Part shown: positions 6,102-43,938 of the stretch, one piece after another
Numbering within the stretch: the first letter of the stretch is position 1
Layout of the letters: each line of letters begins with the position of its first letter
Source: a bacterium
Lineage (GTDB): Bacteria > Bdellovibrionota_C > UBA2361 > RFPC01
DNA: 46,888 bases
Direction of reading: 5' to 3'
NCBI GenBank assembly: GCA_009926305.1
Contig: RFPC01000010.1
Span: 1-46,888 of the forward strand
Translations under genes and position numbers: made by a program
Notes under the pieces: generated by a model
Told to the model about the DNA's origin: nothing
The model's input: only the letters and a program-made list of their open reading frames with translations
Database searches by the model: none

Positions 6102-7031
6102 GTGATTAGGTTTATACCTGAATTGATCGCTGCAGGCGCACTTCGAAAACAGCAGCAAAGCTCACGAGATAGCGTTTATAACGCTCTCCGGGAGCAAAGA
6201 TTATTCAATTCGATTTTAACTTCGAGTATTTACCTGTCTCTTCTTTTTCTGCTCTCCTCTCTCACTCATCAAAGCACTGTTCATGCACAAGGCATACATC
6301 AGTTTGGGCCTTCTTCTCTTAAAAATCTGCAACAGGATCTAGAGGAAGAATACGCCTATTTGCCGATGGAAGACTTTCACATGATGTCAAAAGCGCTGGG
6401 ACTCGCTCCATCCGATCTACGTCTCCGAGCTCTTTTTCATCCTGATGCCGAAAAAGAGCTCGAACAACAACGCGCGCTTAAAGAAGAGTCCGCTGAACGC
6501 ACCTCGTCCTCTGAATCATCCAAGCGACTCTTTGCACACATAAAACAAAAAGGTGGTGGAACATCAATCATTACCCCAGAGGAGATCATGGCTCCTCACA
6601 TAAAGTACATGGAAGAAAACAAAGAAAGGATCCTTCAGCTCGCTATCGATAAGCTCACAGAGGGTCAAAAAGCTGCTCAAGAACAATTCACCATCCCTCC
6701 TCTTCCGAAATGTCTCCACTCTTACACTGATAAGACAGAGCTGCAGCCAAGAGTCAAAGGAAGAGAGAAAGAGATTATCGGTGACTTTCTCTTCGTCACT
6801 CCTAAACATGCCACAACAAGCTCAAAAGAAATCTTTGGAGATTCAGTCAAGTTGATTGTCTATGACTCCTCTAAGCCAAGTCCTTTCGGACTACTCGCTA
6901 AAAACTACGAAGTCTCATGCCTCCCCTACCGAGTTCGCTCTACGGGAACGTTTCTCTTTAAACACTACGGAGAGGATGCGCTGAAAAACTTTAACGGAGA
7001 TCCACACGGTGAAGGCGAAAAAATACTCTAG
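6102..7031 (+). CDS. Exported protein, first gene of an envelope operon
   Basis: This 309-residue protein is not recognised. It starts at a GTG with AAGGAG five bases before it. A polar N-terminal stretch of about 35 residues is followed by a hydrophobic segment (SIYLSLLFLLSSL) ending at VHAQ, which looks like a long signal peptide. The middle is charged and helical, and two cysteines occur late (PKCLHSY and VSCLPYR). The last third (GDFLFVTP, VKLIVYDSS, EVSCLPYRVRSTGTFLF) could be a thioredoxin-like fold as in TraW or TrbC of conjugation systems, but I cannot confirm this. It overlaps the next gene by 23 bases, so the two are translated together. Confidence 0.75.
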   Translation: MIRFIPELIAAGALRKQQQSSRDSVYNALREQRLFNSILTSSIYLSLLFLLSSLTHQSTVHAQGIHQFGPSSLKNLQQDLEEEYAYLPMEDFHMMSKALGLAPSDLRLRALFHPDAEKELEQQRALKEESAERTSSSESSKRLFAHIKQKGGGTSIITPEEIMAPHIKYMEENKERILQLAIDKLTEGQKAAQEQFTIPPLPKCLHSYTDKTELQPRVKGREKEIIGDFLFVTPKHATTSSKEIFGDSVKLIVYDSSKPSPFGLLAKNYEVSCLPYRVRSTGTFLFKHYGEDALKNFNGDPHGEGEKIL

Positions 7032-8760
7032 CGCTCTAAAAAGAGCTCTCTGCACCAGTGTGATTTTCATCACTCCGCTAGCGCACGCTCAGTATCTTGA
7101 CCCTCTGGTTGACTCAAATCTGATTCAAGACCTTGCAGACTCGGCTCAAGTCGTCAGTGAAATCCTTCCTCCAACCGATACTCTCGGAGTAGGACAAGCC
7201 TCGGCTCGGGTTGGTGTTATTGCCGGACAGTCAGAAGCACTTCGAATCGCTTCTGAAGGAACTCGAACAGGATTAGCAGATGAGATTATGCAAACTCCTG
7301 CTGAAATTCAGGAACTCGCTATCCGTATACCTGGATTTCCTGGAATACCTGGAACTCCTGGAATACCTGGAACACCGAGCATGTATGAACCAAGAGAAAG
7401 AGAGTTTGAAGAAGGGAGTAACGTCGCTGATATCGCTGCTCAAATGCTCTGGGACTGGGGACTGAATGTCTGGGACTTCTATGTCAACTGGGAGTCCGAA
7501 TGGGAGATCAGCGGTTTATGCAAAAGGAAGTCTTCCTTTTTTCCCCGACAAAAATACTGGTATCCCGCTGTCTGGTTTGAGCAAAGCAGTGATATGTACC
7601 GCGGAAAATATCTTGAACAGATGATTGTTCGGCCCCTCTTTAAGGAATGGATAGAAGACGGGACAATAGCTGGTGCTCAAGCCGGTCTTATTGGTCTTAG
7701 CGGACTCTTTGATGACCGATATGAGATGGCACAAGAGCTTGCGCCAAGAGAAATCAACCGAGTACGCGCTATTTCAGACCCAAAGGAAGATGGAACCCAA
7801 AAGACATACGTTGAACGAACTGAAGCTCTCATAAGCGCTCTCGGGAGCGATGGGGATATTTCTTCTCTTCACGAACCTTTGTATGCCCTCGGGAAAAGCA
7901 CCATGAAAGGTCTCTCCGGATATGGTGAAGTCAGTGCTCGTGGACGAAATGTCGAGTCCTACCGATTTGTCGGACTCTCTCAATATACAAGCATCCCGAC
8001 CGCATTTTTAGGAAACTGGCATACAAGCTATAGTGAGTCTATTCCCTTTGTCCACAGAACAGACAACCCGTTGATCTATCCCTACACAAGAAATCAAAGC
8101 ACTCTCGATCTCCTTCTCTTAATCCGAGGTCAACCACAAAATCTTAACTTAGGTGCCCTTCCGGGCAACTGCTTAGCATTTAATTATCTTGACCAGCCTT
8201 TAGGTGTCGACTTTGATGGAGAATTCGGACTTCTTTCAAAGATACATCCGGATGAGCCAAGTCTCGCTACGTTAGCACTGAACGCCAATAGTCGAAAATG
8301 TCTTCGAGGAAGCTCTATCTATCCTCTTACAAACTTCGTTGCAGGTGGTAAAAACTTTAAAAATGCTTTTTATACGAAATTTCTTCGTATGAATAAGCTC
8401 TCAGATCTCTACTCCTTTGGTCTTCCATATATGAGACTCCCCATGTTTCATCACTATAGCGGGTATGGAAGCCGATTTCGGAGTAAAATACAGATCCACG
8501 ACTCGAGCTTTGATGGCGATGACGAACCCCATCGAATCAACCTGAGTACTCTCTCTACTCCTTGGACAAATCCTGGATACAATAATGAAAGAGGAGCAGG
8601 AGGCGGCGATGGTGGCATTATTACTGGACTAGATAACGGACGAAAACTTGATATTGGAAGTGGTGTTGAATGGCATCGATATGACCTCTGCAGGCCTGGA
8701 TATAGACCTCTTTATCCAAGAAAGCGGCAGATAAAAGGCCACGAACGGTATACGGGGTAA
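7009..8760 (+). CDS. Large exported protein with a short collagen-like tract
   Basis: This 583-residue protein starts at a GTG preceded by ACGGAG and overlaps the previous gene by 23 bases. It has a clear signal peptide (basic MKAKKYSSALKR, hydrophobic core, AHA-Q cleavage site). Around residues 107-123 runs a Gly-x-Pro/Pro-Gly tract (PGFPGIPGTPGIPGTP). The rest is rich in aromatic residues, with paired cysteines (GLCKRK, GNCLAF, KCLRGS, DLCRPGY), suggesting a disulfide-bonded periplasmic or surface protein. I considered TraU of F-type conjugation systems because of the neighbours and the cysteines, but none of the TraU motifs I know is clear. Function is unknown. Confidence 0.8.
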   Translation: MKAKKYSSALKRALCTSVIFITPLAHAQYLDPLVDSNLIQDLADSAQVVSEILPPTDTLGVGQASARVGVIAGQSEALRIASEGTRTGLADEIMQTPAEIQELAIRIPGFPGIPGTPGIPGTPSMYEPREREFEEGSNVADIAAQMLWDWGLNVWDFYVNWESEWEISGLCKRKSSFFPRQKYWYPAVWFEQSSDMYRGKYLEQMIVRPLFKEWIEDGTIAGAQAGLIGLSGLFDDRYEMAQELAPREINRVRAISDPKEDGTQKTYVERTEALISALGSDGDISSLHEPLYALGKSTMKGLSGYGEVSARGRNVESYRFVGLSQYTSIPTAFLGNWHTSYSESIPFVHRTDNPLIYPYTRNQSTLDLLLLIRGQPQNLNLGALPGNCLAFNYLDQPLGVDFDGEFGLLSKIHPDEPSLATLALNANSRKCLRGSSIYPLTNFVAGGKNFKNAFYTKFLRMNKLSDLYSFGLPYMRLPMFHHYSGYGSRFRSKIQIHDSSFDGDDEPHRINLSTLSTPWTNPGYNNERGAGGGDGGIITGLDNGRKLDIGSGVEWHRYDLCRPGYRPLYPRKRQIKGHERYTG

Positions 8761-8773
8761 TACGGGAAAGAGA

Positions 8774-9664
8774 ATGATGAGATATATCGCGATAATACTG
8801 TTTTCCCCTCTCTTCCTTCTTGTATCGCAAGAAGTCTCTGCTGATCCTTCAGCACACCGTCCTGACAGATTCTTTCAGCAAGGATATGTAAAGGGCGCCA
8901 TGAAAAATAAAAGCTCGGTAAAAACACCCCGACCTTCTCATTCTTCGATGAAGCCAATCCATAAAACACCACCTCCTCAAGAAATAACGCAAGAAGAGCT
9001 CGCTCAGGAAGACACGGAACAAGACTCTCTTACTCTTATAGATAGCTCAAATGAAAAGGAAGAGAGCCTTGAGCAAGAAAAAGAAGAAAAGACTATTCCT
9101 ATTCAATCTCTCGCTCTCATTATTAACGCCTCAGAAGTAGATGAGTCCTTCTCTCTACTCGCGAATATGTCGAACATCTTAAAACAGTTCGATATACAGC
9201 CAGAAGCAGTTTATACCATGCAAATACCTCAATTCTTCGTTCGGGATGCTTCCTATGACTGGGCAAATATCATTATTCGGGGTGGAAGAATTGCCATGAA
9301 CCGTAAAATCGTAGAACAATATAATATTAAGAAGGTTCCTACATGGATCGCAAGAACCGCTGTGGGAGATGTCGTACTAGAAGGCTATCAGGATATCTCC
9401 TCATTTCTTAATCTCAAGGGAGAGCTAAGAAGAGCGCAACTTGAAAATCTTCGTGAAGATCTGGAAGTAAATCCTGACAAACAAAGCATCATCCCCGCAG
9501 GACTGCCGAATGTAATGGATCAGGAGACTGCTACTGCAATAAAAACAATGGCAACGTTTGATAAAAAAGATGTTCTTAAAAAACTTCTGGAAGTACAAAA
9601 TACGTCTTCTTCAAATCAGATCTTGCCAGAACTACAAAGAAAAGAGGCCGCCTATGAAAAATAA
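8774..9664 (+). CDS. Exported protein with a TrbC/thioredoxin-like C-terminal region
   Basis: This 296-residue protein has a signal peptide (RYIAIILFSPLFLLVSQEVSA), then about 80 disordered, glutamate-rich residues, then a compact domain. That domain (SLALIINAS, ANIIIRGGRIAM, KIVEQYNIKKVPTWIAR, GDVVLEGYQDISSFL) has the strand, cis-Pro-like VPTW and closing helix order of TrbC-type pilin-assembly proteins of F-type conjugation systems. No CxxC is present, which also fits TrbC. The assignment to TrbC is inferred from pattern only. It starts 13 bases after the previous gene and overlaps the following lipoprotein gene by 11 bases. Confidence 0.75.
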   Translation: MMRYIAIILFSPLFLLVSQEVSADPSAHRPDRFFQQGYVKGAMKNKSSVKTPRPSHSSMKPIHKTPPPQEITQEELAQEDTEQDSLTLIDSSNEKEESLEQEKEEKTIPIQSLALIINASEVDESFSLLANMSNILKQFDIQPEAVYTMQIPQFFVRDASYDWANIIIRGGRIAMNRKIVEQYNIKKVPTWIARTAVGDVVLEGYQDISSFLNLKGELRRAQLENLREDLEVNPDKQSIIPAGLPNVMDQETATAIKTMATFDKKDVLKKLLEVQNTSSSNQILPELQRKEAAYEK

Positions 9665-10157
9665 AGCCCTTTATCTACTTCCATTTCTATCCTTTCTCTT
9701 GATGACTGCCTGCTATGATGTCCCGTATCTCATTAAACCTGAGTCAGAGGGAATATTCGTTGAAGACGCTCTCGGTGAATGGAAGTCAATTAAGCAAACA
9801 GCTCAATCAAGGACTATTACTCTCTCCATAACAAGAGAAAGCGCTAAAACAAACTGGTATGCCATTAAAAAAGTTGACTATCCCACAAAAGAAGTCAGAT
9901 TCTTACGAGCTCTCGTTCACAAAGTGGGAGAACACCTCATTTTCTCTTATCAAGATAACAAATTTAAAGATTTCTCCATCTTTCGAGTCTCTCTTGATAC
10001 CTCAATCTCTCCACCACAAATTAACGCTATTGCTCTTAGTGAGGATGCACCCCGATTCAAAACAAAAGAGGAGTTCATAAACTTTCTCCTCTCTGAAGAC
10101 GCCAACTCATGGTTTAAAGATGGGTACACTTTTAAAAAAATTAGTGAAAATGGTTAA
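9654..10157 (+). CDS. Small lipoprotein, last gene of the envelope operon
   Basis: This 167-residue protein begins MKNKALYLLPFLSF with a lipobox LMTAC, so it is a predicted lipoprotein with Cys at about residue 19. The longer reading from 9558 is rejected because its extra residues lie inside the previous gene and would bury the lipoprotein signal. A segment GEWKSIKQTAQSRTITLSI and a strand-rich remainder suggest a small beta-rich domain, but no family is recognised. It overlaps the previous gene by 11 bases, so it is the fourth member of the same transcription unit and its product probably works in the envelope with the other three. Confidence 0.7.
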   Translation: MKNKALYLLPFLSFLLMTACYDVPYLIKPESEGIFVEDALGEWKSIKQTAQSRTITLSITRESAKTNWYAIKKVDYPTKEVRFLRALVHKVGEHLIFSYQDNKFKDFSIFRVSLDTSISPPQINAIALSEDAPRFKTKEEFINFLLSEDANSWFKDGYTFKKISENG

Positions 10158-14049: not shown

Positions 14050-14134
14050 AAGAGGGGCTGGGGGGCTCTTCTCATCCAAAGAGAGCCGTAATAACAGCAC
14101 CTTATCCCTGAAGGTTGTCCCCCACCCTCAATCC

Positions 14135-14166
14135 TTGTTATATTCTATATAGAATTATACTAGAAT
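14135..14166 (+). promoter_or_regulatory. Promoter region with a 14-bp palindrome before imuA
   Basis: ATTCTATATAGAAT at 14142-14155 is a perfect palindrome. It sits between a possible -35 (TTGTTA, 14135-14140) and possible -10 hexamers (TATACT at 14156 or TAGAAT at 14161). A repressor bound there would cover the promoter of the mutagenesis cassette, which elsewhere is under LexA control. It does not match any LexA box I know, so the identity of the repressor is inferred only. Confidence 0.4.
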
Positions 14167-14195
14167 CGTATGCTTTCAGGATAAAGGCCCTAGCC

Positions 14196-15335
14196 ATGGC
14201 AATCTCACCTCGACGAAATACTTCTTTTCGCCAACACCTCTCTCGATCTGGCAAGCAATCTCTTACGCTCACGTCCTTTCTTCAAAGAGGACTCCTCTGG
14301 CCTGCTGAAGAGCCTGTTACTTCTTTACAAAAAAATCAGACAAAGAGAGGCCGAAGGCCGTATCCGTCGCGATCGTTCCCCTATGCTTCAGATTTTATTA
14401 CGCCCTTCGGAGTTGATGCCATCGACTCCCATCTTCCTTATGGGGGTCTCTTATCAGGAGTTATACATGAATGGTTTCTAGCACAGAGAAAAGATGTGCC
14501 GGACAATCCACTTACAAATCAAATACTCACCCCTCTTTCTCTACTCACATTTCTTGTTGGAAATGCTATTTCCGAGCTTATAAAAGACAGAGGTGTTTAC
14601 TTCGACTCTCAACATGATGCTCTCCTGAATCAAGAGGCTTATTCTATAAAAAACAAATGTCAAAGCCTCCTGAAGTGGAATCGATATATTTTCTGGATTG
14701 GGAAAGAGTGTTGGCCATCGCCATATGCACTCTGTAAAAACTTACCTCTCGCCTCACTTATGAATAGCTGTATATTTATTGACGCAAGAGATGATGCAGA
14801 GAAACTCTCTTTTCTTGATATCATTCTACGCTCTCCGGCAACATTTGCTGTCGTCGCATATCTTAAGAATCTCTCAATCGCTGAAAGTAAACGACTGACT
14901 ATTGCTGCGGCCTCTCATGACGCCTCAAATGGACGAATTGCCTTCATCTGTCGTCCTGTAAGTGCAGTGAGAACACTATCAACATCTCAAACTCGATGGA
15001 GACTTACACCCATCGCAGCAGATTCTCTCATTACAGGTACCGCTCCTAACCTACCGCCACTTGCCTGGAAATTAGAGCTCATTAAGCAAAAAGGACTTCA
15101 AGCAAAAATACGGAATTGGAAACTCTTACTACGCGAAAATATTTCCACTCAACAAAAACCCCTATTAACGGCCTTCCCCTTAATAAAGACAGATACTTCT
15201 ACTGAGCCTTATGACACAGCAGACACATCAGCAACAGATACATCAGCAACAGATACATCAGCAACAGATACATCAGCAACAGGCAAAGCGACCTCCTTCA
15301 TATCTTTGCCTTCACCTTCCCGAATGGTCAGTTGA
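14196..15335 (+). CDS. imuA: ImuA-like RecA-related protein of the mutagenesis cassette
   Basis: This 379-residue protein starts MAISPRRN at 14196, after an AGGATAAAGG site. A further ATG at 14115 lacks a ribosome-binding site. The core segment GVDAIDSHLPYGGLLSGVIHEWF matches the G-x-x-x-LD-x-x-LP-x-GGL-x-G-x-x-HE opening of ImuA/SulA-like proteins. As in that family, the RecA Walker A lysine is missing. ImuA helps ImuB and DnaE2 copy damaged DNA, giving SOS mutagenesis. The C-terminus has four DTSAT repeats encoded by the 15-bp repeat at 15225-15284, inside the 125-base overlap with imuB. Sequence similarity to textbook ImuA is modest, and the genetic context makes the call. Confidence 0.8.
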   Translation: MAISPRRNTSFRQHLSRSGKQSLTLTSFLQRGLLWPAEEPVTSLQKNQTKRGRRPYPSRSFPYASDFITPFGVDAIDSHLPYGGLLSGVIHEWFLAQRKDVPDNPLTNQILTPLSLLTFLVGNAISELIKDRGVYFDSQHDALLNQEAYSIKNKCQSLLKWNRYIFWIGKECWPSPYALCKNLPLASLMNSCIFIDARDDAEKLSFLDIILRSPATFAVVAYLKNLSIAESKRLTIAAASHDASNGRIAFICRPVSAVRTLSTSQTRWRLTPIAADSLITGTAPNLPPLAWKLELIKQKGLQAKIRNWKLLLRENISTQQKPLLTAFPLIKTDTSTEPYDTADTSATDTSATDTSATDTSATGKATSFISLPSPSRMVS

Positions 15336-16932
15336 GCGCAAAGCGAGAGTTCTTGGTAATAAAACTCGAGACCATCTCATTCTTACCAGAGAGGTTCATG
15401 GAATAAAGAGAGTGCAGCGAGCTTCATGCGCTCTTCGTGAACAAGGGATTTTTTTGGGTATTCCTGTTGAGATGGCACGAACACTATCACATAACATCAT
15501 TGAACATGCATTTGAACCAGAAGAAGACTTTGAGAAGCTACTTCTTCTCGCCGAAAGCGCAATTCGCTACACCCCGCGAGTTGGCATTGATCGCGAACTG
15601 ATCAATGCTCATCGAAAGGGAACGCTTGCTACTCTCTCGCCAGAAAACACTGGGATTATACTTAATATTACCGGAACTGAGCGGCTCTACGGAAAAGATT
15701 CGCCAGAAAAATCAGCTGAAATCCTCGCATCTCGTCTTAAGCAACACCTCAAGAAACTCAAGATTACTGCTCATATCGGTATCGGACCAACTATTGGCGC
15801 CGCATGGGCACTATCACGATTTCAAGACATGGAGCCCTGCCCAGAGAGGATTCCTATGCAAATCTGCTCATATTCAGAGCTACAAGAAATATCAGCAGTG
15901 CTTCCCATTCATGCTCTTCGACTATCACCTGATAACTGCCTGGGGCTAAGAGAGCTCGGCATTCATACTATTAAGCACCTTAGGCAATTATCCCGAAAAG
16001 ATCTCGGCATACGATTCGGCATCTCACTCCTTCGTGCCATTGATGAGTTTTTTGGAGCAGTTCCTGAGCCAATCATCTCTATACACGAATCTGAATCAAT
16101 TATTGCTGAAAGAGAGTTTGATCCTCCTATCGTAAAGCACTCAGATATAACTCAAGGCATTATCCTTGTTTTTGAAGAACTTCTTTCTTCTGCTAAAAAG
16201 AAAGGCCTTTCTGGCGCACGCTTTGAACTTACGCTTATCGGCTCAGATATCAACTATTCCCCATTTACTATTCGACGTATTCTCTCTCTTCATACTGCTA
16301 CATCCCAAACAAAGGAAATCCGTGAAATTCTTACTCCCATAATTGAGAGAGTGCATTTTCAAGGCGCAATCTCTCTCATCCGATTACACATTCAAGATGC
16401 AGCGCTTGCTACTGCTCATCAGAAAGAAATCACCTCTTCTGTTCCTATCCCCAAAAAGCACTCTGAACAACTACTCAATAAGCTTGTCAGCATCTCAAAA
16501 AGAAGTTGTTTACAAATGATAGAATCTCATAAAACCCATCTTCCCGAGAAGCGCTTCTCGTATAGACCAATTCGTCCATATGAACTTCCTGCTCCATCAC
16601 AGAAACAAGAGGCTGCTTTAGATATCATCCGAGATTTTTACGCATTCTACCCAACCCATATTTTTTCTAATCCCGAAGAGATCCTAATCCTTTCGACTTA
16701 TCCTAATAGGCTCCCCTCTGCTATGAGATGGCGCCACGTGCTCTATAGAGCTCAATTCATTCTTGGTCCTGAAAAAATCTCTCCCGAATGGTGGCAGGAG
16801 TCTCTCGAAACGAGCGCTCTGATCGAAGAAGATCGAGACTACTTCACCTTTATCTCTAATGCTGGTGAATGGTTTTGGATTTATCACCTTCATTGTTCAC
16901 AAAAATGGTATCTTCAAGGAATCTGGAGATGA
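15211..16932 (+). CDS. imuB: ImuB, catalytically dead Y-family polymerase
   Basis: This 573-residue Y-family protein acts as the hub of the ImuA-ImuB-DnaE2 mutasome. The first 24 residues are MTQQT followed by HQQQI repeats. The domain proper starts at YLCLHLPEWSVER, where active DinB enzymes have the metal-binding D-x-D. The second catalytic site (S-x-DE) is replaced in ILNITGTERLYG. So it should not polymerise, as expected for ImuB. HIGIGPTIGAAWALSRF and the helix-hairpin-helix region LRELGIHTIKHLRQLS follow. No other in-frame start codon exists between 15211 and the conserved core, so the repeat must be translated. It ends ATGA, overlapping the dnaE2 start. Confidence 0.92.
   Translation: MTQQTHQQQIHQQQIHQQQIHQQQAKRPPSYLCLHLPEWSVERKARVLGNKTRDHLILTREVHGIKRVQRASCALREQGIFLGIPVEMARTLSHNIIEHAFEPEEDFEKLLLLAESAIRYTPRVGIDRELINAHRKGTLATLSPENTGIILNITGTERLYGKDSPEKSAEILASRLKQHLKKLKITAHIGIGPTIGAAWALSRFQDMEPCPERIPMQICSYSELQEISAVLPIHALRLSPDNCLGLRELGIHTIKHLRQLSRKDLGIRFGISLLRAIDEFFGAVPEPIISIHESESIIAEREFDPPIVKHSDITQGIILVFEELLSSAKKKGLSGARFELTLIGSDINYSPFTIRRILSLHTATSQTKEIREILTPIIERVHFQGAISLIRLHIQDAALATAHQKEITSSVPIPKKHSEQLLNKLVSISKRSCLQMIESHKTHLPEKRFSYRPIRPYELPAPSQKQEAALDIIRDFYAFYPTHIFSNPEEILILSTYPNRLPSAMRWRHVLYRAQFILGPEKISPEWWQESLETSALIEEDRDYFTFISNAGEWFWIYHLHCSQKWYLQGIWR
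15225..15284 (+). repeat. 15-bp tandem repeat coding in two frames
   Basis: There are four units of ACATCAGCAACAGAT; the last ends GC instead of AT. One frame gives TSATD for the ImuA C-terminus and another gives HQQQI for the ImuB N-terminus. The unit length is a multiple of three, so copy-number changes keep both genes in frame. Confidence 0.95.
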
Positions 16933-19900
16933 CAGGCTATCAAGTCGCTTCTTATACAGAGATTGCAGCTCAGTCTCACTTTAGCTTTTTAGAAGGAGCA
17001 AGCTCTCCTGAAGAAATCATACACACTGCTCATGCGCTTGGATATCGTGGCATATCCATTTCGGACAGAGACTCGCTCTCTGGAATTGTAAGAGCATATG
17101 GCGCTATCCGTGAGATAGAAGAGAGTGAGCGGTGTTTGCTGAAGTTGCTTATCGGAGCAACGATCAATCTGATTCCCTCTGAATCATCATCCTATACTGA
17201 AAACGAGGCTCTGCCACTTTGCTCTCTGATTATTCATCCCACTAGCGTTGAGTCATATGGCAATCTTTCAGAGCTGCTTACTCTAGGAAAGTCTCGTTCT
17301 CAAAATGGAAGTACCTGTCTTATTATAGAAGATCTAGAGAATTTTCAGGAAGGACTTTGCCTAACAGCACTTCCTCTTTGGCCATTACCAAAGCGTGATA
17401 CTTCAATAGAACAGCTCTTTGTAAAGCTTCGAAAAGAAATTGGAGCTCTCTATGAAGCAACTCGTCATCGCTCAGTCCTTTTTTCCCTTGGGCTGTTTCG
17501 TTCATTTACCCATCTTGCTGATTCCTTTGAAAAAAATGTGATACGGCTCGCCAGAGAGCTTTCTATTCCTCTTGTTGCCACAAATATTCCCCTCTCTCAC
17601 TCACAAGAGCGAAAGCCTCTTCAAGACATTCTCACATGTATTCGTTGTGGAATCTCAATTCAAAAAGCTGGTTATCTTCTTAATTCGAACCGCGAGCGAT
17701 ACCTCAAATCTTCGGACGAAATGTGCCATCTTTTTTCAGATCTCCCAATGGCAATCACTCGAACAAATGAAATTCTCGAAGCCGCCTCGCAGTTCTCTCT
17801 CGATCAACTTACTTATGAATATCCCCATGAGGTCTGCCCTTCCCAAGAATCTCCCAAGGATTTTCTGAGAAGACTCACGGAAGAAGGCGCTGCCTTGCGA
17901 TTTCCTAATGGAACTCCCAAACGAATACAGAATCTCATTAATCACGAGCTTGCACTCATTCATGAACTTCAATATGAGCACTATTTCCTTACTTGCTATG
18001 ATATCGTTCGATTTGCTCGCTCTCGTCGCATTCTCTGTCAAGGCAGAGGAGCTGCTGCAAACTCCGCGGTCTGCTATTGCCTGGGGATAACTTCGGTAAA
18101 TCCAGTCGAGATTGATCTTCTGTTTGCTCGCTTCATCAGCAAAGAAAGAAACGAACCTCCTGATATTGATATTGACTTTGAGCATGAACGGCGAGAGGAG
18201 GTCATACAGTATATATACGAAAAATATGGTCGAGATAGAGCAGCTCTGACCTGCGAAGTGGTTACCTATCGTTATCGTAGTGCTATTCGAGATGTAGGAA
18301 AAGCGCTTGGTCTTCCAGAAAGCATAGTAGATTCACTAGCAAAGCGTTCTCATCGATGGACTGGAAGCACCATATCAAGGAGTGATATTGAAGCGCTTGG
18401 TCTGGAGCATGACAGTATTGCGATCCGAAACACCCTTCTCCTTGCTCATCAGCTCCTTGGATTTCCACGGCACCTATCTCAACACGTAGGGGGATTTATT
18501 ATCTCTGAACAACCATTAAGTCGCATTGTTCCCATTCGACATGCAACTATGGCTGGTCGAACTATCATTGAGTGGAATAAGGATGACATAGAGGAGTTAG
18601 GAATTCTCAAAATCGACATTCTTGCCCTGGGAATGCTTTCCTGCATTCGTAAAGCATTCGAAATGATTAATCGACAACGTCTCTCACATAATGAGTCCGA
18701 GATCGCACTTCATTCTCTCCCCAGAGAAGACCGAGACGTTTACACAATGATACAACAAGCAGATACTATCGGCGTCTTTCAGATCGAGTCACGAGCACAG
18801 ATGTCCATGCTTCCTCGCCTCCGTCCTCAATGTTTTTATGATCTTGTTATTGAAGTAGCGATTGTTCGTCCCGGTCCAATCCAAGGCAATATGGTGCATC
18901 CATATCTCCGTCGGCGTCAAGGAAAAGAGAAAATCATATTTCCCGATTCAAGAGTCCGTGCCGTCCTCGGAAAAACTCTTGGCGTGCCCATATTTCAAGA
19001 ACAAGCAATGCGACTTGCCATTGAATTAGCTGATTTTACTCCTGGAGAAGCTGAGAAGTTTCGTCGTTCAATGGCTGCCTGGCGTCGTAAGGAATCGGTA
19101 GTCACGCAATTCGTTGCTCGTATCGTCCAAGGAATGCAATCCAAGGGCTATTCAAATGAATTTATTGAGCAGTGTTGTCGGCAGCTACGAGGCTTTAGCG
19201 AATATGGATTTCCTGAGTCTCATGCTGCCTCATTTGCACTACTCGTATATGCCTCTGCGTGGATTAAGCACTACTATCCAGCTGAGTTTGCTGTTGCACT
19301 TCTCAACAGCCAACCAATGGGATTTTATTCTCCTGCACAGATTATAGATGATGCAAAGCGGCATGGAATTCGCGTGCTGCCAGTTGATGTAAACTATAGC
19401 TCCTGGGACTGTACTGTTTCCGTACTGCCACAACAGGACTCCCCTATTCAACGAAATACGATTCGTCTTGGCCTTCGGATGATTAAAGGAGTGTCAGAAA
19501 GTGACGGAATTGTTTTCTCAAGAGCAGTAAACACATATGGAAAATTTACGTCGCTATCCGACCTGTGGAACAAAATTCGTCGCATAGCTCCAGCATCATC
19601 CCGACGGATGCTAAGAAAAATAGCTTCTGCGGATGGTTTTCGATCCCTCGGACTATCGCAGCGAGATGCGCTCTGGGAAATACGTTCACTACGTTCAACG
19701 GACGCCCCTCTTTTTGAAGAGATACGCGGTTCAACTTTGCAGCCATTTTTACCAGGACTCTCACGTGAAGAAGCAACTTTTCAGGACTACCTCTCTACTG
19801 GAGTGTCTCTGAGGGCACATCCAATAGAATTCCTTAGAAATATCATTACAAAAAAGGGCGGTATTTCTACAAGAGAACTGCACACCATGGCTGAGGGCGC

Positions 19901-20159
19901 TCTGGTCTGCGTTGCTGGTAGTGTTCTCTTTCGACAACGCCCTGGAACCGCAAAGGGAGTAGTATTCATAACTCTTGAAGACGAGTTCGGAATGACAAAC
20001 CTTATAATCTCTCCAGAACTCCTCCAAAATCATCAACCAATTATACTCTACTCGAATATAATGTTTGCAGAAGGGCGACTGCGAAAAATTGGTCCTATGA
20101 CCTATATTTCCGTAAAGGCTCTAGCAAGCTTAGATGATGCTAGCCCTTGTCGGTACTGA
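16929..20159 (+). CDS. dnaE2: DnaE2 (ImuC) error-prone DNA polymerase III alpha subunit
   Basis: This 1076-residue C-family polymerase inserts opposite lesions during SOS mutagenesis. The start MTGYQVASYTE at 16929 overlaps the imuB stop as ATGA. The reading from 16869 is rejected because the family begins at this point. The PHP domain opens SHFSFLEGASSPEEII. The polymerase active site shows PPDIDIDFEHERREEVI (two of the three catalytic Asp) and the third Asp in LGILKIDILALGML. The length fits DnaE2 and is shorter than replicative DnaE. An OB domain is present near the C-terminus (LVCVAGSVLFRQRPGTAKGVVFITLEDE). It stops four bases from the end of the facing ATPase gene. Confidence 0.95.
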   Translation: MTGYQVASYTEIAAQSHFSFLEGASSPEEIIHTAHALGYRGISISDRDSLSGIVRAYGAIREIEESERCLLKLLIGATINLIPSESSSYTENEALPLCSLIIHPTSVESYGNLSELLTLGKSRSQNGSTCLIIEDLENFQEGLCLTALPLWPLPKRDTSIEQLFVKLRKEIGALYEATRHRSVLFSLGLFRSFTHLADSFEKNVIRLARELSIPLVATNIPLSHSQERKPLQDILTCIRCGISIQKAGYLLNSNRERYLKSSDEMCHLFSDLPMAITRTNEILEAASQFSLDQLTYEYPHEVCPSQESPKDFLRRLTEEGAALRFPNGTPKRIQNLINHELALIHELQYEHYFLTCYDIVRFARSRRILCQGRGAAANSAVCYCLGITSVNPVEIDLLFARFISKERNEPPDIDIDFEHERREEVIQYIYEKYGRDRAALTCEVVTYRYRSAIRDVGKALGLPESIVDSLAKRSHRWTGSTISRSDIEALGLEHDSIAIRNTLLLAHQLLGFPRHLSQHVGGFIISEQPLSRIVPIRHATMAGRTIIEWNKDDIEELGILKIDILALGMLSCIRKAFEMINRQRLSHNESEIALHSLPREDRDVYTMIQQADTIGVFQIESRAQMSMLPRLRPQCFYDLVIEVAIVRPGPIQGNMVHPYLRRRQGKEKIIFPDSRVRAVLGKTLGVPIFQEQAMRLAIELADFTPGEAEKFRRSMAAWRRKESVVTQFVARIVQGMQSKGYSNEFIEQCCRQLRGFSEYGFPESHAASFALLVYASAWIKHYYPAEFAVALLNSQPMGFYSPAQIIDDAKRHGIRVLPVDVNYSSWDCTVSVLPQQDSPIQRNTIRLGLRMIKGVSESDGIVFSRAVNTYGKFTSLSDLWNKIRRIAPASSRRMLRKIASADGFRSLGLSQRDALWEIRSLRSTDAPLFEEIRGSTLQPFLPGLSREEATFQDYLSTGVSLRAHPIEFLRNIITKKGGISTRELHTMAEGALVCVAGSVLFRQRPGTAKGVVFITLEDEFGMTNLIISPELLQNHQPIILYSNIMFAEGRLRKIGPMTYISVKALASLDDASPCRY

Positions 20160-20163
20160 ATTG

Positions 20164-22404
20164 TCATCCGTGCTTGCTCCAGCCTCTAATAATCTCATGA
20201 GCCTGATCTCTTGCAACGCAATACTGATTTCGTGAATGTTGACGACACTGCTCTCGGAAGCTTTCTGTCGGGATTACAATCTCCTCAGTCTGCGCTGAAA
20301 AGACTTCTTGCGCGTACTCTCCGACCATCATTTTCATATAAAACTCACGCGCCGGGAGATTAACAAGATCGCTCTCCCAAACTCTTGGAGCCAGTTCTCT
20401 TGCAACCGCCCCTGCGTCTTCATTCCCCACCCGAAATGCGGCAAAATTTCCAATGTTTCCAAAAATAGTATTCCGAACACCTGCTGGCAGAAGAGCAAGA
20501 CTTTGCGCAGTAAGGTTTAAGTTCAACCTGTATTTCCTGGACTCGCTCAGGATCTCCTCGAAGCTCGCCGTTGCAAATTCATTAAAGTCATCGACATAAA
20601 GATAGAAATCTGGTCGCATCTCATAAGGCATATCCGCTCGAGACATTGCAGCATAGTAAATACGTGCCATCACCATGGCACCCAAAAGCGAAGCATTATC
20701 ATCCCCCAACAACTCATTAGAGATCTTCATAAGCAGAATCTTTCGCGAGTCCATGATCTGCCGAAAATTGAACTTATTGAATGGCTGTCCAAGTGAGTTT
20801 CGTATCATTTCTGCACTTACAAAATCGCTGATCATCCGCTGTACTGGCTCAATCGCTACCTCCTGCCAATCTTTTTGCCATCGAGGAAACTCATGTATCC
20901 AAAAATCACGAACCGTACGATCTCGAATATTGGGCAAAACTGATGACCGATACTTCTCATCTGCTAACATTCTCTGAATAGACAATACGGTAGTCCACTC
21001 TGTGCTGAGCAGAGCAAGTGTCGTATAGAGCAAGAGGTGCTCAATACGATCGTTCCACTGATCTTCAAATCGAATATGAAACATCTCTAGTAGACCAGTT
21101 GCTACTCGCATTCGAGATCCTTCTTGAACGATCTCGAAAGGATTAAGACTAGCGGGATAATCAATGTCACTCGGATCATAGAGCACAACATCATTGATTC
21201 GGTCTTTCGGAATGATATCCAGAATTTGATCTACTAACCCGCCCTCTGGATCGAGCACTCCCACGCCCATCCCGCTTCGCAAATCTTCCTCGATCAATAA
21301 CCGCAACATTCCTGATTTTCCCGTTCCGCTCTTGCCTAAGATCAGCAGGTGTCGCTGCCGATCCTCTCGCTGTATTCCAAACGGAATCGTCTGGCTTCGA
21401 TAAATTGTCCGCCCTACCCTACTAACGTCTACTCGGTCAGTACTCACTGGCAGGTCTCTCGGAGGGCTCGCATGTCTCGCGAGAATCATTCGAAAATTTA
21501 AGTTTCCCACACCTGGCAATTGCCACATACCGGGAATTTCACGGGTATACATGCACATAGCTGGTCTTTTTCCACGAGCAAGGCGTCTCTCACGGAGTGG
21601 CACAAATGCACGTTCACCAAACCTTACTCGGTGTAAGCCATATAAATTCCAATCGCCATGGTTTTGTAGTGCGTATCCTGCTGCGATATTTTTTATGGCC
21701 GAAACTATTTCCTGCTCAGCGGCCTTTTTTCGCTGCAGACTCTCCTCTCGCTCATCAACCACTAATATTCGAATATTTGCTGCAAGCCATTTTCCAACCG
21801 CTTTATCAAGAATCATCTCGAGTTGCTTCTCTCTCGTCTCCTTGTCACGAAACCAAAATTTCGGCCGAAAGATGTGTATCATGCGGTCAAAGACCCTTCG
21901 ACACCACATTTGACTATGAAAAATCAGATTGGATGAAATCGGTTCTAGAACAACTTGCGTCATAATCTTGTAGTGTGCTGGCTGCTCTGCAATTGCTCTT
22001 AAAATCGGATCCATAGCACCACAAAGGGTGACTTTATAATTGTTGCTTGGATTAATATCGGAACGGAGATAAGACACATCACCCACCCCGATAAGGGCAT
22101 TCTGAGACACGGAATCCAGTGGGTCGGGGACTTGTATAATATCAGCGGTTGGGTGATTTAAGTACATCATTCCAGCCATGGCTTCTGCATCTGCCGAGCG
22201 CGCGCCAAAGAGAAATGAGATTGTCTGATTTTCCTGATAGAGCTCGAGAGAAAAACGGCCAATCTTTGCTGCATGCCACCCTAATAATAACTCATGAAAC
22301 TTATGCGATTGAGTCATTGACCACGTCGCATCATAAAGAATATCCGCCACTGAGGTGTCTTCATGTGCAAATCGATAGCAGTAGATGCCAAAATCTGGAT
22401 CCAT
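20164..22404 (-). CDS. VirD4/TraD/HerA-like ATPase, second of a tandem pair
   Basis: This protein has about 746 residues. An N-terminal region of about 340 residues of unknown fold is followed by a RecA-like motor with Walker A LGKSGTGKSGML (about residue 358) and VLDPEGGLVDQILDIIPKDRI, the layout of type IV secretion coupling ATPases. The Walker B is YLYVDDFNEFA (about residue 595), with Asp where the partner has the catalytic Glu (IDEFQNFA). The ATG at 22404 is preferred because GGGAGGA is five bases before it. A GTG at 22407 also fits. Start and upstream stop overlap as TGATG (1 base), so translation is coupled. It has no membrane segments, so it would need another anchor. Confidence 0.8.
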   Translation of the reverse strand: MDPDFGIYCYRFAHEDTSVADILYDATWSMTQSHKFHELLLGWHAAKIGRFSLELYQENQTISFLFGARSADAEAMAGMMYLNHPTADIIQVPDPLDSVSQNALIGVGDVSYLRSDINPSNNYKVTLCGAMDPILRAIAEQPAHYKIMTQVVLEPISSNLIFHSQMWCRRVFDRMIHIFRPKFWFRDKETREKQLEMILDKAVGKWLAANIRILVVDEREESLQRKKAAEQEIVSAIKNIAAGYALQNHGDWNLYGLHRVRFGERAFVPLRERRLARGKRPAMCMYTREIPGMWQLPGVGNLNFRMILARHASPPRDLPVSTDRVDVSRVGRTIYRSQTIPFGIQREDRQRHLLILGKSGTGKSGMLRLLIEEDLRSGMGVGVLDPEGGLVDQILDIIPKDRINDVVLYDPSDIDYPASLNPFEIVQEGSRMRVATGLLEMFHIRFEDQWNDRIEHLLLYTTLALLSTEWTTVLSIQRMLADEKYRSSVLPNIRDRTVRDFWIHEFPRWQKDWQEVAIEPVQRMISDFVSAEMIRNSLGQPFNKFNFRQIMDSRKILLMKISNELLGDDNASLLGAMVMARIYYAAMSRADMPYEMRPDFYLYVDDFNEFATASFEEILSESRKYRLNLNLTAQSLALLPAGVRNTIFGNIGNFAAFRVGNEDAGAVARELAPRVWESDLVNLPAREFYMKMMVGEYAQEVFSAQTEEIVIPTESFREQCRQHSRNQYCVARDQAHEIIRGWSKHG

Positions 22405-24686
22405 CACGATCCTCCCTCTAGGACGCTCGCGACTTGCCTGTCACTGCTTCTTTTTTGATTTTGCTGCTCAAAATCAGCAAGGATTTCTACTCGATCCTTG
22501 GAATACTGTCGTCTTGATTGCTCAATACATTCGGTCACAAAGTTTTCCTTTGGCATCGCGATATCGATAGTTCTGCCCGAAAAAGCATCTTGAGGCGCAC
22601 CGTCAAGCATCATCCGAATGTAAAAGTTCCTTAAGTTCAAATTCATCAACCCAAGATGATCAAACGGTGGAGAAAATCGTGACTCAATAGCATGTGCATC
22701 CTCACTTCCAATTTGAAATGAGATGACGTTACCCACCTTAGACATCAAAACGTCTTTGACACCTTCTGGAAGCTGCTTGAGCATTTGGTGGGCAATCGTG
22801 TAGCTCACTCCTTGTTTTGCCGCATCAGTAAGAGATTTGGCAAAGCTATCAGTCGCGAAGTTCTGAAATTCATCAATATAAATATAGAAAGGCAACATGT
22901 TCCCATCTCGATGTGCTCGCGTTGCTGCCGCTAACCGTAACGAAGTAAGCAGAAGAGTGCCTAAAAGAACAGTATTCTGTCTTCCTAAGTTCTTCTTGGG
23001 AACTTTCATGAGTATAATTTTTCGCTCATCCATCATACGCACGAGATCAAACTTATTCTCCTGTTGAGCAAGAATGCAGCCAACGAGATTCGTAGATAAT
23101 AAGCGAGACAAAATCTTCTTTACACGAAAAATATCCGCGTGTTCAAGCAGCTCGTCAATAAGCGCCTCTTGTTTCGACCAATATTCAAGGAGTGGCCCAG
23201 CTGGAAGCTGCTCCACGAATGCGTTTCGTATTGTCCGATCCCCTAACATTTCAAATAGAGAATAGAGTGTCGTCTTGGGAGTTTCCAACAACGTCAGGAC
23301 ACAATTCTGTAACAGACGCTCTGCAGCTTCAGACAGCGAGAGAGCCTCCACCTTCTTAAACATATCAACCAGCTCTCTTGCAACAAATTGTCGCTCTGAG
23401 GTGTAAACATTCTCAAATGGATTAAAACAGGGAGGAAATTGATAATCAGAAACATCAAAAATAGCTATATCTTTTATCCGATGCTCGGGAACAATCTGTA
23501 AGACGTCATCTACAAGATCCCCGTGACAATCCAGTAGTGCTAATCCGGATCCATGCTGCATATCAGACTGAACAAGCAGCTCGATAAGTTTTGATTTGCC
23601 CGCACCAGACTTGCCGAGAATATGGAGATGGCTCTTTCGATCCTCACGTCGGATACCAAAGATTTCCTGCCCCTGTCTGAAGTTCGTTCTACCAAAGAGA
23701 GAAATCTCGGATAGCTGGCGATTGCCTGCAAAAAGCGCAGCTGGTGGATTTCCCCTACTCGCAAGCACCTGCGCTATGTTCATATGCTTATCTACAAAGA
23801 CGGGATGCCAAAGAGTAGCAAGTTCTTGGCTCGTCATAAGGAAGGGCTTTAAAAGCTGTCTTTTTATAACGGGCGATAGCGCTTCCTTGCCGAACTTTCT
23901 GGAGCGAACCTTCAAGCGACCCATGTCTGAATAATTTATAAACTTTAGCCCAGTGGAAACACTGTTAAGGCAAGCCTTCGCTTTTGATTCAAGTGCTTTT
24001 CGTTCTTCGGATGATATATCGTGGGAAGCAGAAACAACGACTGAAGTCCTGATGCTCATCTGAAACATCAGACTAATTATTTTCCCTGGATATTTCGTCT
24101 TGAACTTTTTTGCAACTCCCGGCTTAAACCAGTAAAGCGGCCTAAAGGGATAGCTTGAGAGCCACGACCATGCTTGCCACTTATATCTCATAGCCTGCAT
24201 AGAGGTCTCAGGTAATGAACGCGCGACAAATTGAACAATGACTTTGTAGCCCGGGGGAAGCACTGATAATATATTCAGATATGGTCCAGCTGCATCATGC
24301 TGATTGTCGTCGTAGGTAATAAAAGGGAGTATCGGATATCGCGGCTCAACGATGCCGTATTCCTCTGTAACCACAATATCATGCTCCATAACTCCGTTAA
24401 GAAAATCATCGCGTTCAACAATAGATGCTGTTGGAATCATGGTATAGAGAGCAGAACTAATGGCTGAGATCTGCTCCTCTGAGGCCGTGAAGCAGAGCTC
24501 AATATGCTGATTATGGGAGTAGACCTCTAAAGCAAATCCTCCGAGTAGCTGCTCCCAGAGCATCGCAAGGGTTTCGTTCATCTGCGAAGACTTTCGAACC
24601 TTCCCTACTGCCATCCAATGCCCCTCGCCGTCAGAGATCACCTCTCGAGCAAGAAATATCGAACAGGTCTTTAGATTTGATGCCAT
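22404..24686 (-). CDS. VirD4/TraD/HerA-like ATPase, first of a tandem pair
   Basis: This 760-residue paralogue of its downstream neighbour has the same overall plan: an N-terminal domain of about 340 residues, Walker A LGKSGAGKSKLIEL, LLDCHGDLVDDVLQIVPEHRI, Walker B FYIYIDEFQNFA, a sensor-like region AHQMLKQLPEGVKDVL, then SKVGNVISFQIGSEDA. These hallmarks match HerA/VirD4-like pumps that move DNA or protein. Residues near Walker A and in the C-terminal third are conserved between the two, while the N-terminal halves have drifted. It is the upstream gene of the pair. No relaxase, VirB4 or pilin gene is in the window. The substrate is unknown. Confidence 0.8.
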   Translation of the reverse strand: MASNLKTCSIFLAREVISDGEGHWMAVGKVRKSSQMNETLAMLWEQLLGGFALEVYSHNQHIELCFTASEEQISAISSALYTMIPTASIVERDDFLNGVMEHDIVVTEEYGIVEPRYPILPFITYDDNQHDAAGPYLNILSVLPPGYKVIVQFVARSLPETSMQAMRYKWQAWSWLSSYPFRPLYWFKPGVAKKFKTKYPGKIISLMFQMSIRTSVVVSASHDISSEERKALESKAKACLNSVSTGLKFINYSDMGRLKVRSRKFGKEALSPVIKRQLLKPFLMTSQELATLWHPVFVDKHMNIAQVLASRGNPPAALFAGNRQLSEISLFGRTNFRQGQEIFGIRREDRKSHLHILGKSGAGKSKLIELLVQSDMQHGSGLALLDCHGDLVDDVLQIVPEHRIKDIAIFDVSDYQFPPCFNPFENVYTSERQFVARELVDMFKKVEALSLSEAAERLLQNCVLTLLETPKTTLYSLFEMLGDRTIRNAFVEQLPAGPLLEYWSKQEALIDELLEHADIFRVKKILSRLLSTNLVGCILAQQENKFDLVRMMDERKIILMKVPKKNLGRQNTVLLGTLLLTSLRLAAATRAHRDGNMLPFYIYIDEFQNFATDSFAKSLTDAAKQGVSYTIAHQMLKQLPEGVKDVLMSKVGNVISFQIGSEDAHAIESRFSPPFDHLGLMNLNLRNFYIRMMLDGAPQDAFSGRTIDIAMPKENFVTECIEQSRRQYSKDRVEILADFEQQNQKRSSDRQVASVLEGGS

Positions 24687-43362: not shown

Positions 43363-43602
43363 ATGTTTAAAAGTTGTTGTTTCCGCATTATATTCTTCAC
43401 TCTGGTAATTCTTCCGAATCTAGCTCTTACTGAAAGTAAGATAACTCCCACAGGTCCTGGGACGAATATGTGCCTTCGGATCATAATTGATGCAAAGACC
43501 GCCGCCCAGGTTGAGGAAGACGGAAGTACTTTTGTTACTATGCCAGGACCTGATCCGCGATTTGGTGAAACTTCCCGAGAGATGAACGGTGACATTATTG
43601 TT
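43363..43602 (+). CDS. Truncated secreted protein, cut by the junction
   Basis: The reading starts MFKSCCFRIIFFTLVILPNLALTESK with a good signal peptide and a GAGGGG site five bases before the ATG. About 55 residues of a small secreted domain follow (IIIDAKTAAQVEEDGSTFVTMPGPDPRFGETSREMNGDIIVY). The sequence then runs into the reverse complement of a Bacteroidota threonine dehydratase gene near 43600, and the reading frame beyond that is meaningless. The family is not recognised. Confidence 0.55.
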
Positions 43603-43625
43603 TACAGCTTTGATTTTCAACTCAG
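43590..43625. other. Probable chimera junction
   Basis: Two interrupted genes meet here: the plus-strand secreted protein and the minus-strand ilvA. The minus-strand ilvA reading matches threonine dehydratases down to about KIKAV and then stops resembling them. The sequence to the right is AT-richer and Bacteroidota-like; the sequence to the left is not. The exact base cannot be fixed by eye because of a few bases that fit both sides. Confidence 0.75.
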
Positions 43626-43938
43626 GTGCGGTTGCTGGCATTACTATTTCGCAAGGGATTCTCAGTCTCTTGCATGCATTTGCTACTCCTTGTGCATGAT
43701 TGCCTGCACTAGAACAAACAATTCCTTTTTGCCGTTCTTCTTTAGAAAGCCTACAGATGGTGTTGTAGGCGCCTCGTATTTTAAAAGACCGAACCTGCTG
43801 TAAATCTTCTCTTTTAAAAAAAACTTGCGCTTGACATTTTTCGGACAAACGGAGGTTTTTTTGCAAGGGAGATTCTAAGGCTACGCCATCTAAATTTTGG
43901 ACCGCCAAACGGACTCCTTCAAGCGTAGGAAGCGCCAT
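43603..43938 (-). CDS. ilvA: Threonine dehydratase, N-terminal fragment (truncated)
   Basis: About 112 N-terminal residues of biosynthetic threonine deaminase, the first step of isoleucine synthesis, are present. The PLP lysine is in SFKIRGAYN, followed by SSAGNHAQGVANACK (phosphate-binding region). The fragment stops near KIKAV, where the enzyme should continue for roughly 300 more residues. The reading frame happens to stay open to 43420, but that part is not ilvA. It starts four bases after ilvC, the usual Flavobacteriia order. Confidence 0.85.

Follow-up and report, generated by a model that had tools for sequence, protein, structure and literature searches.

What are four consecutive genes, all encoding exported or lipid-anchored proteins, doing in a bacterial chromosome with no conjugation locus beside them? 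The question is raised by positions 6102-10157 of a 46,888-nucleotide stretch of DNA (the window, contig C10 of its genome). The original prediction described the block as an envelope operon with a TrbC-like protein and ventured that it might be a repurposed secretion system. The genes are as follows.

6102..7031, + strand: gene A, 309 aa, exported, in the TraW position; C-terminal part weakly TraW-like or thioredoxin-like
7009..8760, + strand: gene B, 583 aa, exported, with a Cys-rich C-terminus; in the TraU position and TraU-like
8774..9664, + strand: gene C, 296 aa, exported, TrbC-like; thioredoxin fold without CXXC
9654..10157, + strand: gene D, 167 aa lipoprotein, found within the genus only; lipobox at residues 17-20

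The four genes and their relatives

The predicted layout proved exact, down to the spacing: A and B overlap by 23 bases, B and C are separated by 13, and C and D overlap by 11. Inspected by eye, the N-termini of A, B, and C are hydrophobic and resemble signal peptides, and D carries the lipobox LMTAC. Where A starts is less certain (a GTG is assumed); the start of D, read from the sequence, is likely the ATG at 9654, giving 167 residues. Sites resembling promoters or terminators are no commoner at the block than in shuffled sequence, so the operon is argued solely from spacing and synteny. The GC fraction of the block (0.438) is close to that of the window (0.452), and the block therefore does not resemble a recent insertion. 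It is also more than a set of chance open reading frames, since orthologues in the same order lie near thiE in two further species of the genus. One of these loci (L009) has A-B-C-D complete, with proteins 39-46% identical to those of the window; the other (L008) has A-B-C and the first 81 residues of D at the end of a contig. D itself is a genus-level lipoprotein, for which no relative was found outside the genus.

Cut-offs of Pfam and NCBIfam are exceeded by none of the four proteins. Pfam matches nothing in A and B, the sole Pfam match of C is to Thioredoxin_2 (E = 0.09), that of D is at the level of chance, and NCBIfam offered nothing credible for any of them. The TraU model PF06834 matched nothing in the genome and none of 15 homologues of B, the Pfam TrbC model matched none of 14 homologues of C, and A has no Pfam or NCBIfam match to TraW. 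The same two collections gave no Tra family for genus- and order-wide relatives of A-B-C. A scan of named genomes with B found no relatives, and searches of plasmids and phages with B or the whole locus found no matches.

Profiles were also compared using hhalign against reference alignments that drew on F, on pNL1 and pCAR1, and on further plasmids, with 60 column shuffles serving as the control. The genus alignment of B ranked TraU first with a score of 32.4 (shuffle maximum 27.0, n = 60), and C ranked TrbC first with 25.7 (shuffle maximum 16.6, n = 60). With an enlarged alignment of B, the TraU score fell from 32.4 to 22.8, its rank unchanged; one alternative subset of B (Bdist) ranked TraF first, and Bf11, the large gene that adjoins C-A in family f11, was not placed with TraU. 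The score of A against TraW (21.3) was equalled by 1 of the 60 shuffles, and DsbC scored higher, so A is to be named for its TraW position and is possibly thioredoxin-like. Among other parts of the putative machine, the F-, G-, and TraB-like proteins ranked TraF, TraG, and TraB first; H ranked TraH first only with an enlarged alignment, at a score that is not significant. The test lacks power, as it missed TraE, which exceeds its Pfam cut-off. To the eye, B and TraU appear to have several motifs in common, in the same order: LLTEVN / YLSEIDP, then CLRHAGSIYPLTN / FWCAGSQGSMYPFNG, then a C-terminal W...CC.

The AF2 model of C has a well defined thioredoxin domain (pLDDT > 90 across the domain) with no CXXC, and its Foldseek matches in the PDB are thioredoxin-family proteins. 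The model of B, with a pLDDT of 42, is unusable. The PDB holds no chain resembling TraU, TraW, or TrbC of F, which precludes a direct comparison of folds for A-C, and the thioredoxin-like fold of TrbC is itself a published prediction with no solved structure (PMC7555446). Like a type-F TrbC, C is exported, has a thioredoxin-like fold, and adjoins a TraU-like gene, as judged by AF2, Foldseek, and gene order. The TrbC-like protein that had been predicted is present, identified by profile rank, fold, and gene order rather than by a Pfam match. The family HMM comparison proposed as a check was divided in its outcome: no curated TraU, TraW, or TrbC model matched, profile ranking placed B with TraU and C with TrbC, and A against TraW was not significant. 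That B is homologous to TraU, and C to TrbC, is partly shown. What makes the trio F-like is its position, its fold, and weak profile similarity, not membership in curated families.

Other parts of a probable machine

It had been claimed that none of the genes has a clear match to a known machine. This holds for the families of A-D. The kind of machine, however, can be identified, because the remainder of an F-type-related apparatus lies on other contigs of the same genome. Similarly, the absence of a conjugation locus is real locally, but an F-type-related core, a TraG-like gene, and a putative pilin are found elsewhere in the genome, on contigs C11, C133, and C92, respectively.

In this draft genome, assembled in 281 contigs, a TraC-family search found a homologue on C11 (45 kb), at the end of a series (L034) consisting of a TraL-position gene, TraE, TraK, TraB, TraV, a second lipoprotein, and TraC; beyond it lie genes encoding a lipoprotein, a small membrane protein, a PH-domain protein, an SH3 protein, and an M23 peptidase. 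The best NCBIfam model for TraC is TIGR02746 (213 bits over positions 1-786 of 800, short of the equivalog cut-off of 567), and PF11130 exceeds its cut-off. TraB/VirB10 matches PF03743 with 53.8 bits (cut-off 35) and TraE matches PF05309 with 29.4 bits (cut-off 24.8), TraK and TraV are sub-threshold, and TraL is assigned by position alone. The TraG-like gene on C133 (PF07916, TraG_N, E = 1.5e-5, under cut-off) is accompanied by frames in the TraH position; a search with PF06122 (TraH) found no match. The putative pilin on C92 is VirB2-like. Pilin-like proteins here are small, exported, and two-helix, with PF04956 E-values of 0.05 and 0.0003, both under cut-off. Ordinary chromosomal genes flank the T4SS pieces both on C11 and in the window, which holds one further feature that may be pertinent:

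20164..24686, - strand: two adjacent VirD4/HerA-type ATPases (PF10412 and PF12696 just over cut-off)

Homologues of the VirD4-like proteins occur in 28 of 46 genomes of the phylum, often paired and with up to seven matches per genome; one lies on the A-B-C contig of genome G006 (C120) and another on a contig carrying a TrbC-like gene in G003 (C57). The pair might provide cargo-specific coupling proteins to the T4SS. Elsewhere in the window, positions 14115-20159 hold what we take to be an ImuA-ImuB-DnaE2 mutasome operon, with a tandem repeat (about 15211-15335) at the overlap of its first two open reading frames, and a 172 aa reading frame at 43420-43938, beside ilvC, resembles the N-terminal part of threonine dehydratase and is possibly a truncated gene.

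Searches with the profiles of B and C reached homologues beyond the genus, in further genera of the order. In genome G018 (L049), A-B-C is followed directly by TraF-like, TraH-position, and TraG-position genes, the TraF-like protein having a thioredoxin C-terminus and the TraG_N-related protein a length of 1123 aa. The same six contiguous genes are found in G011 (L079). The order in both genomes matches that of the F plasmid, traW-traU-trbC-...-traF-...-traH-traG. In G012 (L185), the A-B-C block is divergent from the F-H-G block; F-H-G stands by itself at L203-L209, and in the genus of the window the two segments are split. The order of the trio does vary in some families, C-A lying beside another large gene in family f11 and A, B, and C being permuted in G016. 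Even so, a search for conserved synteny, the other check that had been proposed, found the A-B-C order kept across the order and the trio in the place of TraW-TraU-TrbC of F. A separate contig, from G001, has two facing orphan TraU-like genes (L010, 3-989 and 2756-4405) and carries neither A nor C.

Inheritance, function, and alternatives

Distribution was assessed over 46 genomes of the phylum, 20 of them of high quality. TraC is present in 44 of the 46 and in every one of the 20 high-quality genomes; those in which it was missed are 89% and 77% complete. It is effectively single-copy, apparent second matches being fragments at contig ends. The scores of near-full-length TraC proteins fall into ranges without overlap: 1964-1978 bits within the genus or family, 1564-1757 within the order, and 1255-1468 within the class. 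Identity to TraC of plasmids reaches at most about 25%. The genes of the TraC operon recur across 42 named contigs, short contigs lowering the counts. GTDB assigns one of these records (JAFLCA, isolate UWPOB_DELTA1) to Bdellovibrionota_B, with UBA2361 as both class and order (PMC8103865), and the window most likely comes from the same order. The putative pilin is found in 43 of 46 genomes and TrbC-like C in 34 (19 of the 20 of high quality), the 12 genomes without a match being mostly incomplete. Since the machine is retained in nearly every sequenced member of the lineage, these comparisons suggest that it is probably inherited vertically, a core tool of the cell rather than a passing plasmid.

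The explanation we favor, with a probability of roughly 0.72, is that A-B-C is the TraW-TraU-TrbC part of a T4SS or pilus machine that is related to the F type, resides on the chromosome, is inherited vertically, and has its genes spread over at least four loci. The observations underlying an F-like machine are gene order, co-occurrence, and conservation. Its loci are the core L-E-K-B-V-C, W-U-TrbC(-D), F-H-G, and the pilin.

In the F plasmid, pilus extension requires TraW, which interacts with TrbC; TraU acts in the formation or stabilization of mating pairs or in DNA transfer; and, in the complete apparatus, TraF, TraH, TraU, and TraW are associated with the outer membrane (PMC7555446). By analogy, TraB-, TraK-, and TraV-like proteins would form an envelope core, and the TraC ATPase would power assembly of the VirB2-like pilin. 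Exported A, B, and C, together with TraF-, TraH-, and TraG-like proteins, would form a periplasmic/outer-membrane complex that allows the pilus to extend and secures contact with a neighboring cell. D may be an accessory lipoprotein. Conjugation is probably not the primary role of the machine, its purpose, we infer, being contact with or delivery to neighboring cells and not the self-transfer of an element. The suggestion of a repurposed secretion system fares well here, as a non-mobile reading fits the near-universal, rank-ordered conservation of TraC.

One might suppose instead that the genes belong to a mobile conjugative element (an ICE or plasmid), resident or remnant, that transfers its own DNA or others in trans. 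F-type T4SSs are usually conjugative, and VirD4-like ATPases are indeed present. Such an element would have to be reconciled, however, with a TraC that is nearly universal and diverges by taxonomic rank, with genes at separate loci that differ in their chromosomal neighbors, with unaberrant local GC, and with the lack of any plasmid relative, all of which make it unlikely. More unlikely still is an independent envelope complex in which A-B-C(-D) is a thioredoxin-like trio unrelated to F-type machines: the lack of curated family matches, the preference of A for DsbC over TraW, and the separation of A-B-C from other T4SS loci within the genus would suit it, but not the physical linkage with TraF-H-G-like genes in other genera, the hhalign ranks, or the co-occurrence with TraC across the phylum.

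Tempo of change and comparison with known systems

Parts of the F-type-related machine differ in tempo. Between the window's genome and G002, TraC is 81% identical, TraK 71%, TraE 67%, and TraB 59%, while A, B, C, and D are 39-46% identical, below even the neighboring ThiE (57%). They differ also in copy number. Where TraC and TraG are single genes, G003 has four C genes, three in complete A-B-C sets (L071, L072, L073), and G004 and G006 carry two C genes each; G001, one of the two further species of the genus, has four additional TraU-like (B) genes or fragments elsewhere in the genome; and some members of the class have up to ten pilin-like genes. On one contig (G033:C215), four pilin-like paralogues lie in tandem (L187, 8465-10444), and the same contig carries a TrbC-like gene. 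The faster divergence of A-D, the orphan TraU-like paralogues, and the extra copies of C, A-B-C, and pilin-like genes beside single TraC and TraG genes raise a tentative idea, which we think possible but doubtful: that a lineage-wide, non-conjugative F-type contact machine has one conserved engine (TraC/TraB/TraG-like) serving interchangeable, fast-evolving tip or periplasmic cassettes, suited to different prey, hosts, or neighbors.

Most of what is known of F-type T4SSs concerns plasmids and integrative elements. No published description of the present system was found in the open-licence literature, where most subscription journals are missing; a 2026 paper on magnetotactic Bdellovibrionota mentions UBA2361, and neither 'secretion' nor 'conjug' occurs in its text (PMC13200544). 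If the favored reading is true, a chromosomal F-type machine retained by almost all genomes of an uncultured class, its pieces largely missed by per-locus detectors and curated models, would join that of Patescibacteria as a second T4SS domesticated across a whole lineage. It would also be a candidate for how Bdellovibrio-related bacteria interact with other cells.

Protochlamydia UWE25 likewise has chromosomal F-like tra genes, but there they make up a genomic island, bounded by direct repeats, in just one genome (PMC548262), as opposed to a near-universal, scattered set. The nearest biological parallel is the T4SS of Patescibacteria, also chromosomal and widespread in an uncultured lineage, and thought to have been co-opted for another function (PMC12102498). 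That system, however, comes from the monoderm MPF_FATA class, whereas the machine considered here is related to the F type and belongs to a diderm lineage; the absence of a relaxase has been shown for the Patescibacteria system only (PMC12102498). Among the open reading frames read at the loci covered here, no relaxase was noted.

The closest comparison in its parts is with the Tra system of the F plasmid (MPF_F). The two are alike in the W-U-trbC...F-H-G order seen in some relatives of the window's genome, in homologues of TraC, TraB, and TraE, in a putative VirB2-like pilin and an exported trio, and in the thioredoxin fold of the TrbC-like protein. They are unlike in that the lineage's machine is chromosomal, spread over several loci, and near-universal; in that it is extremely divergent, with A, B, C, and H falling below curated models; in the extra A-B-C cassettes and pilin paralogues of some genomes; and in D, which has no counterpart in F. 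The core, then, is related to F-type T4SSs, and the trio, which fails curated membership, resembles its F counterpart in gene order and, in part, in fold.
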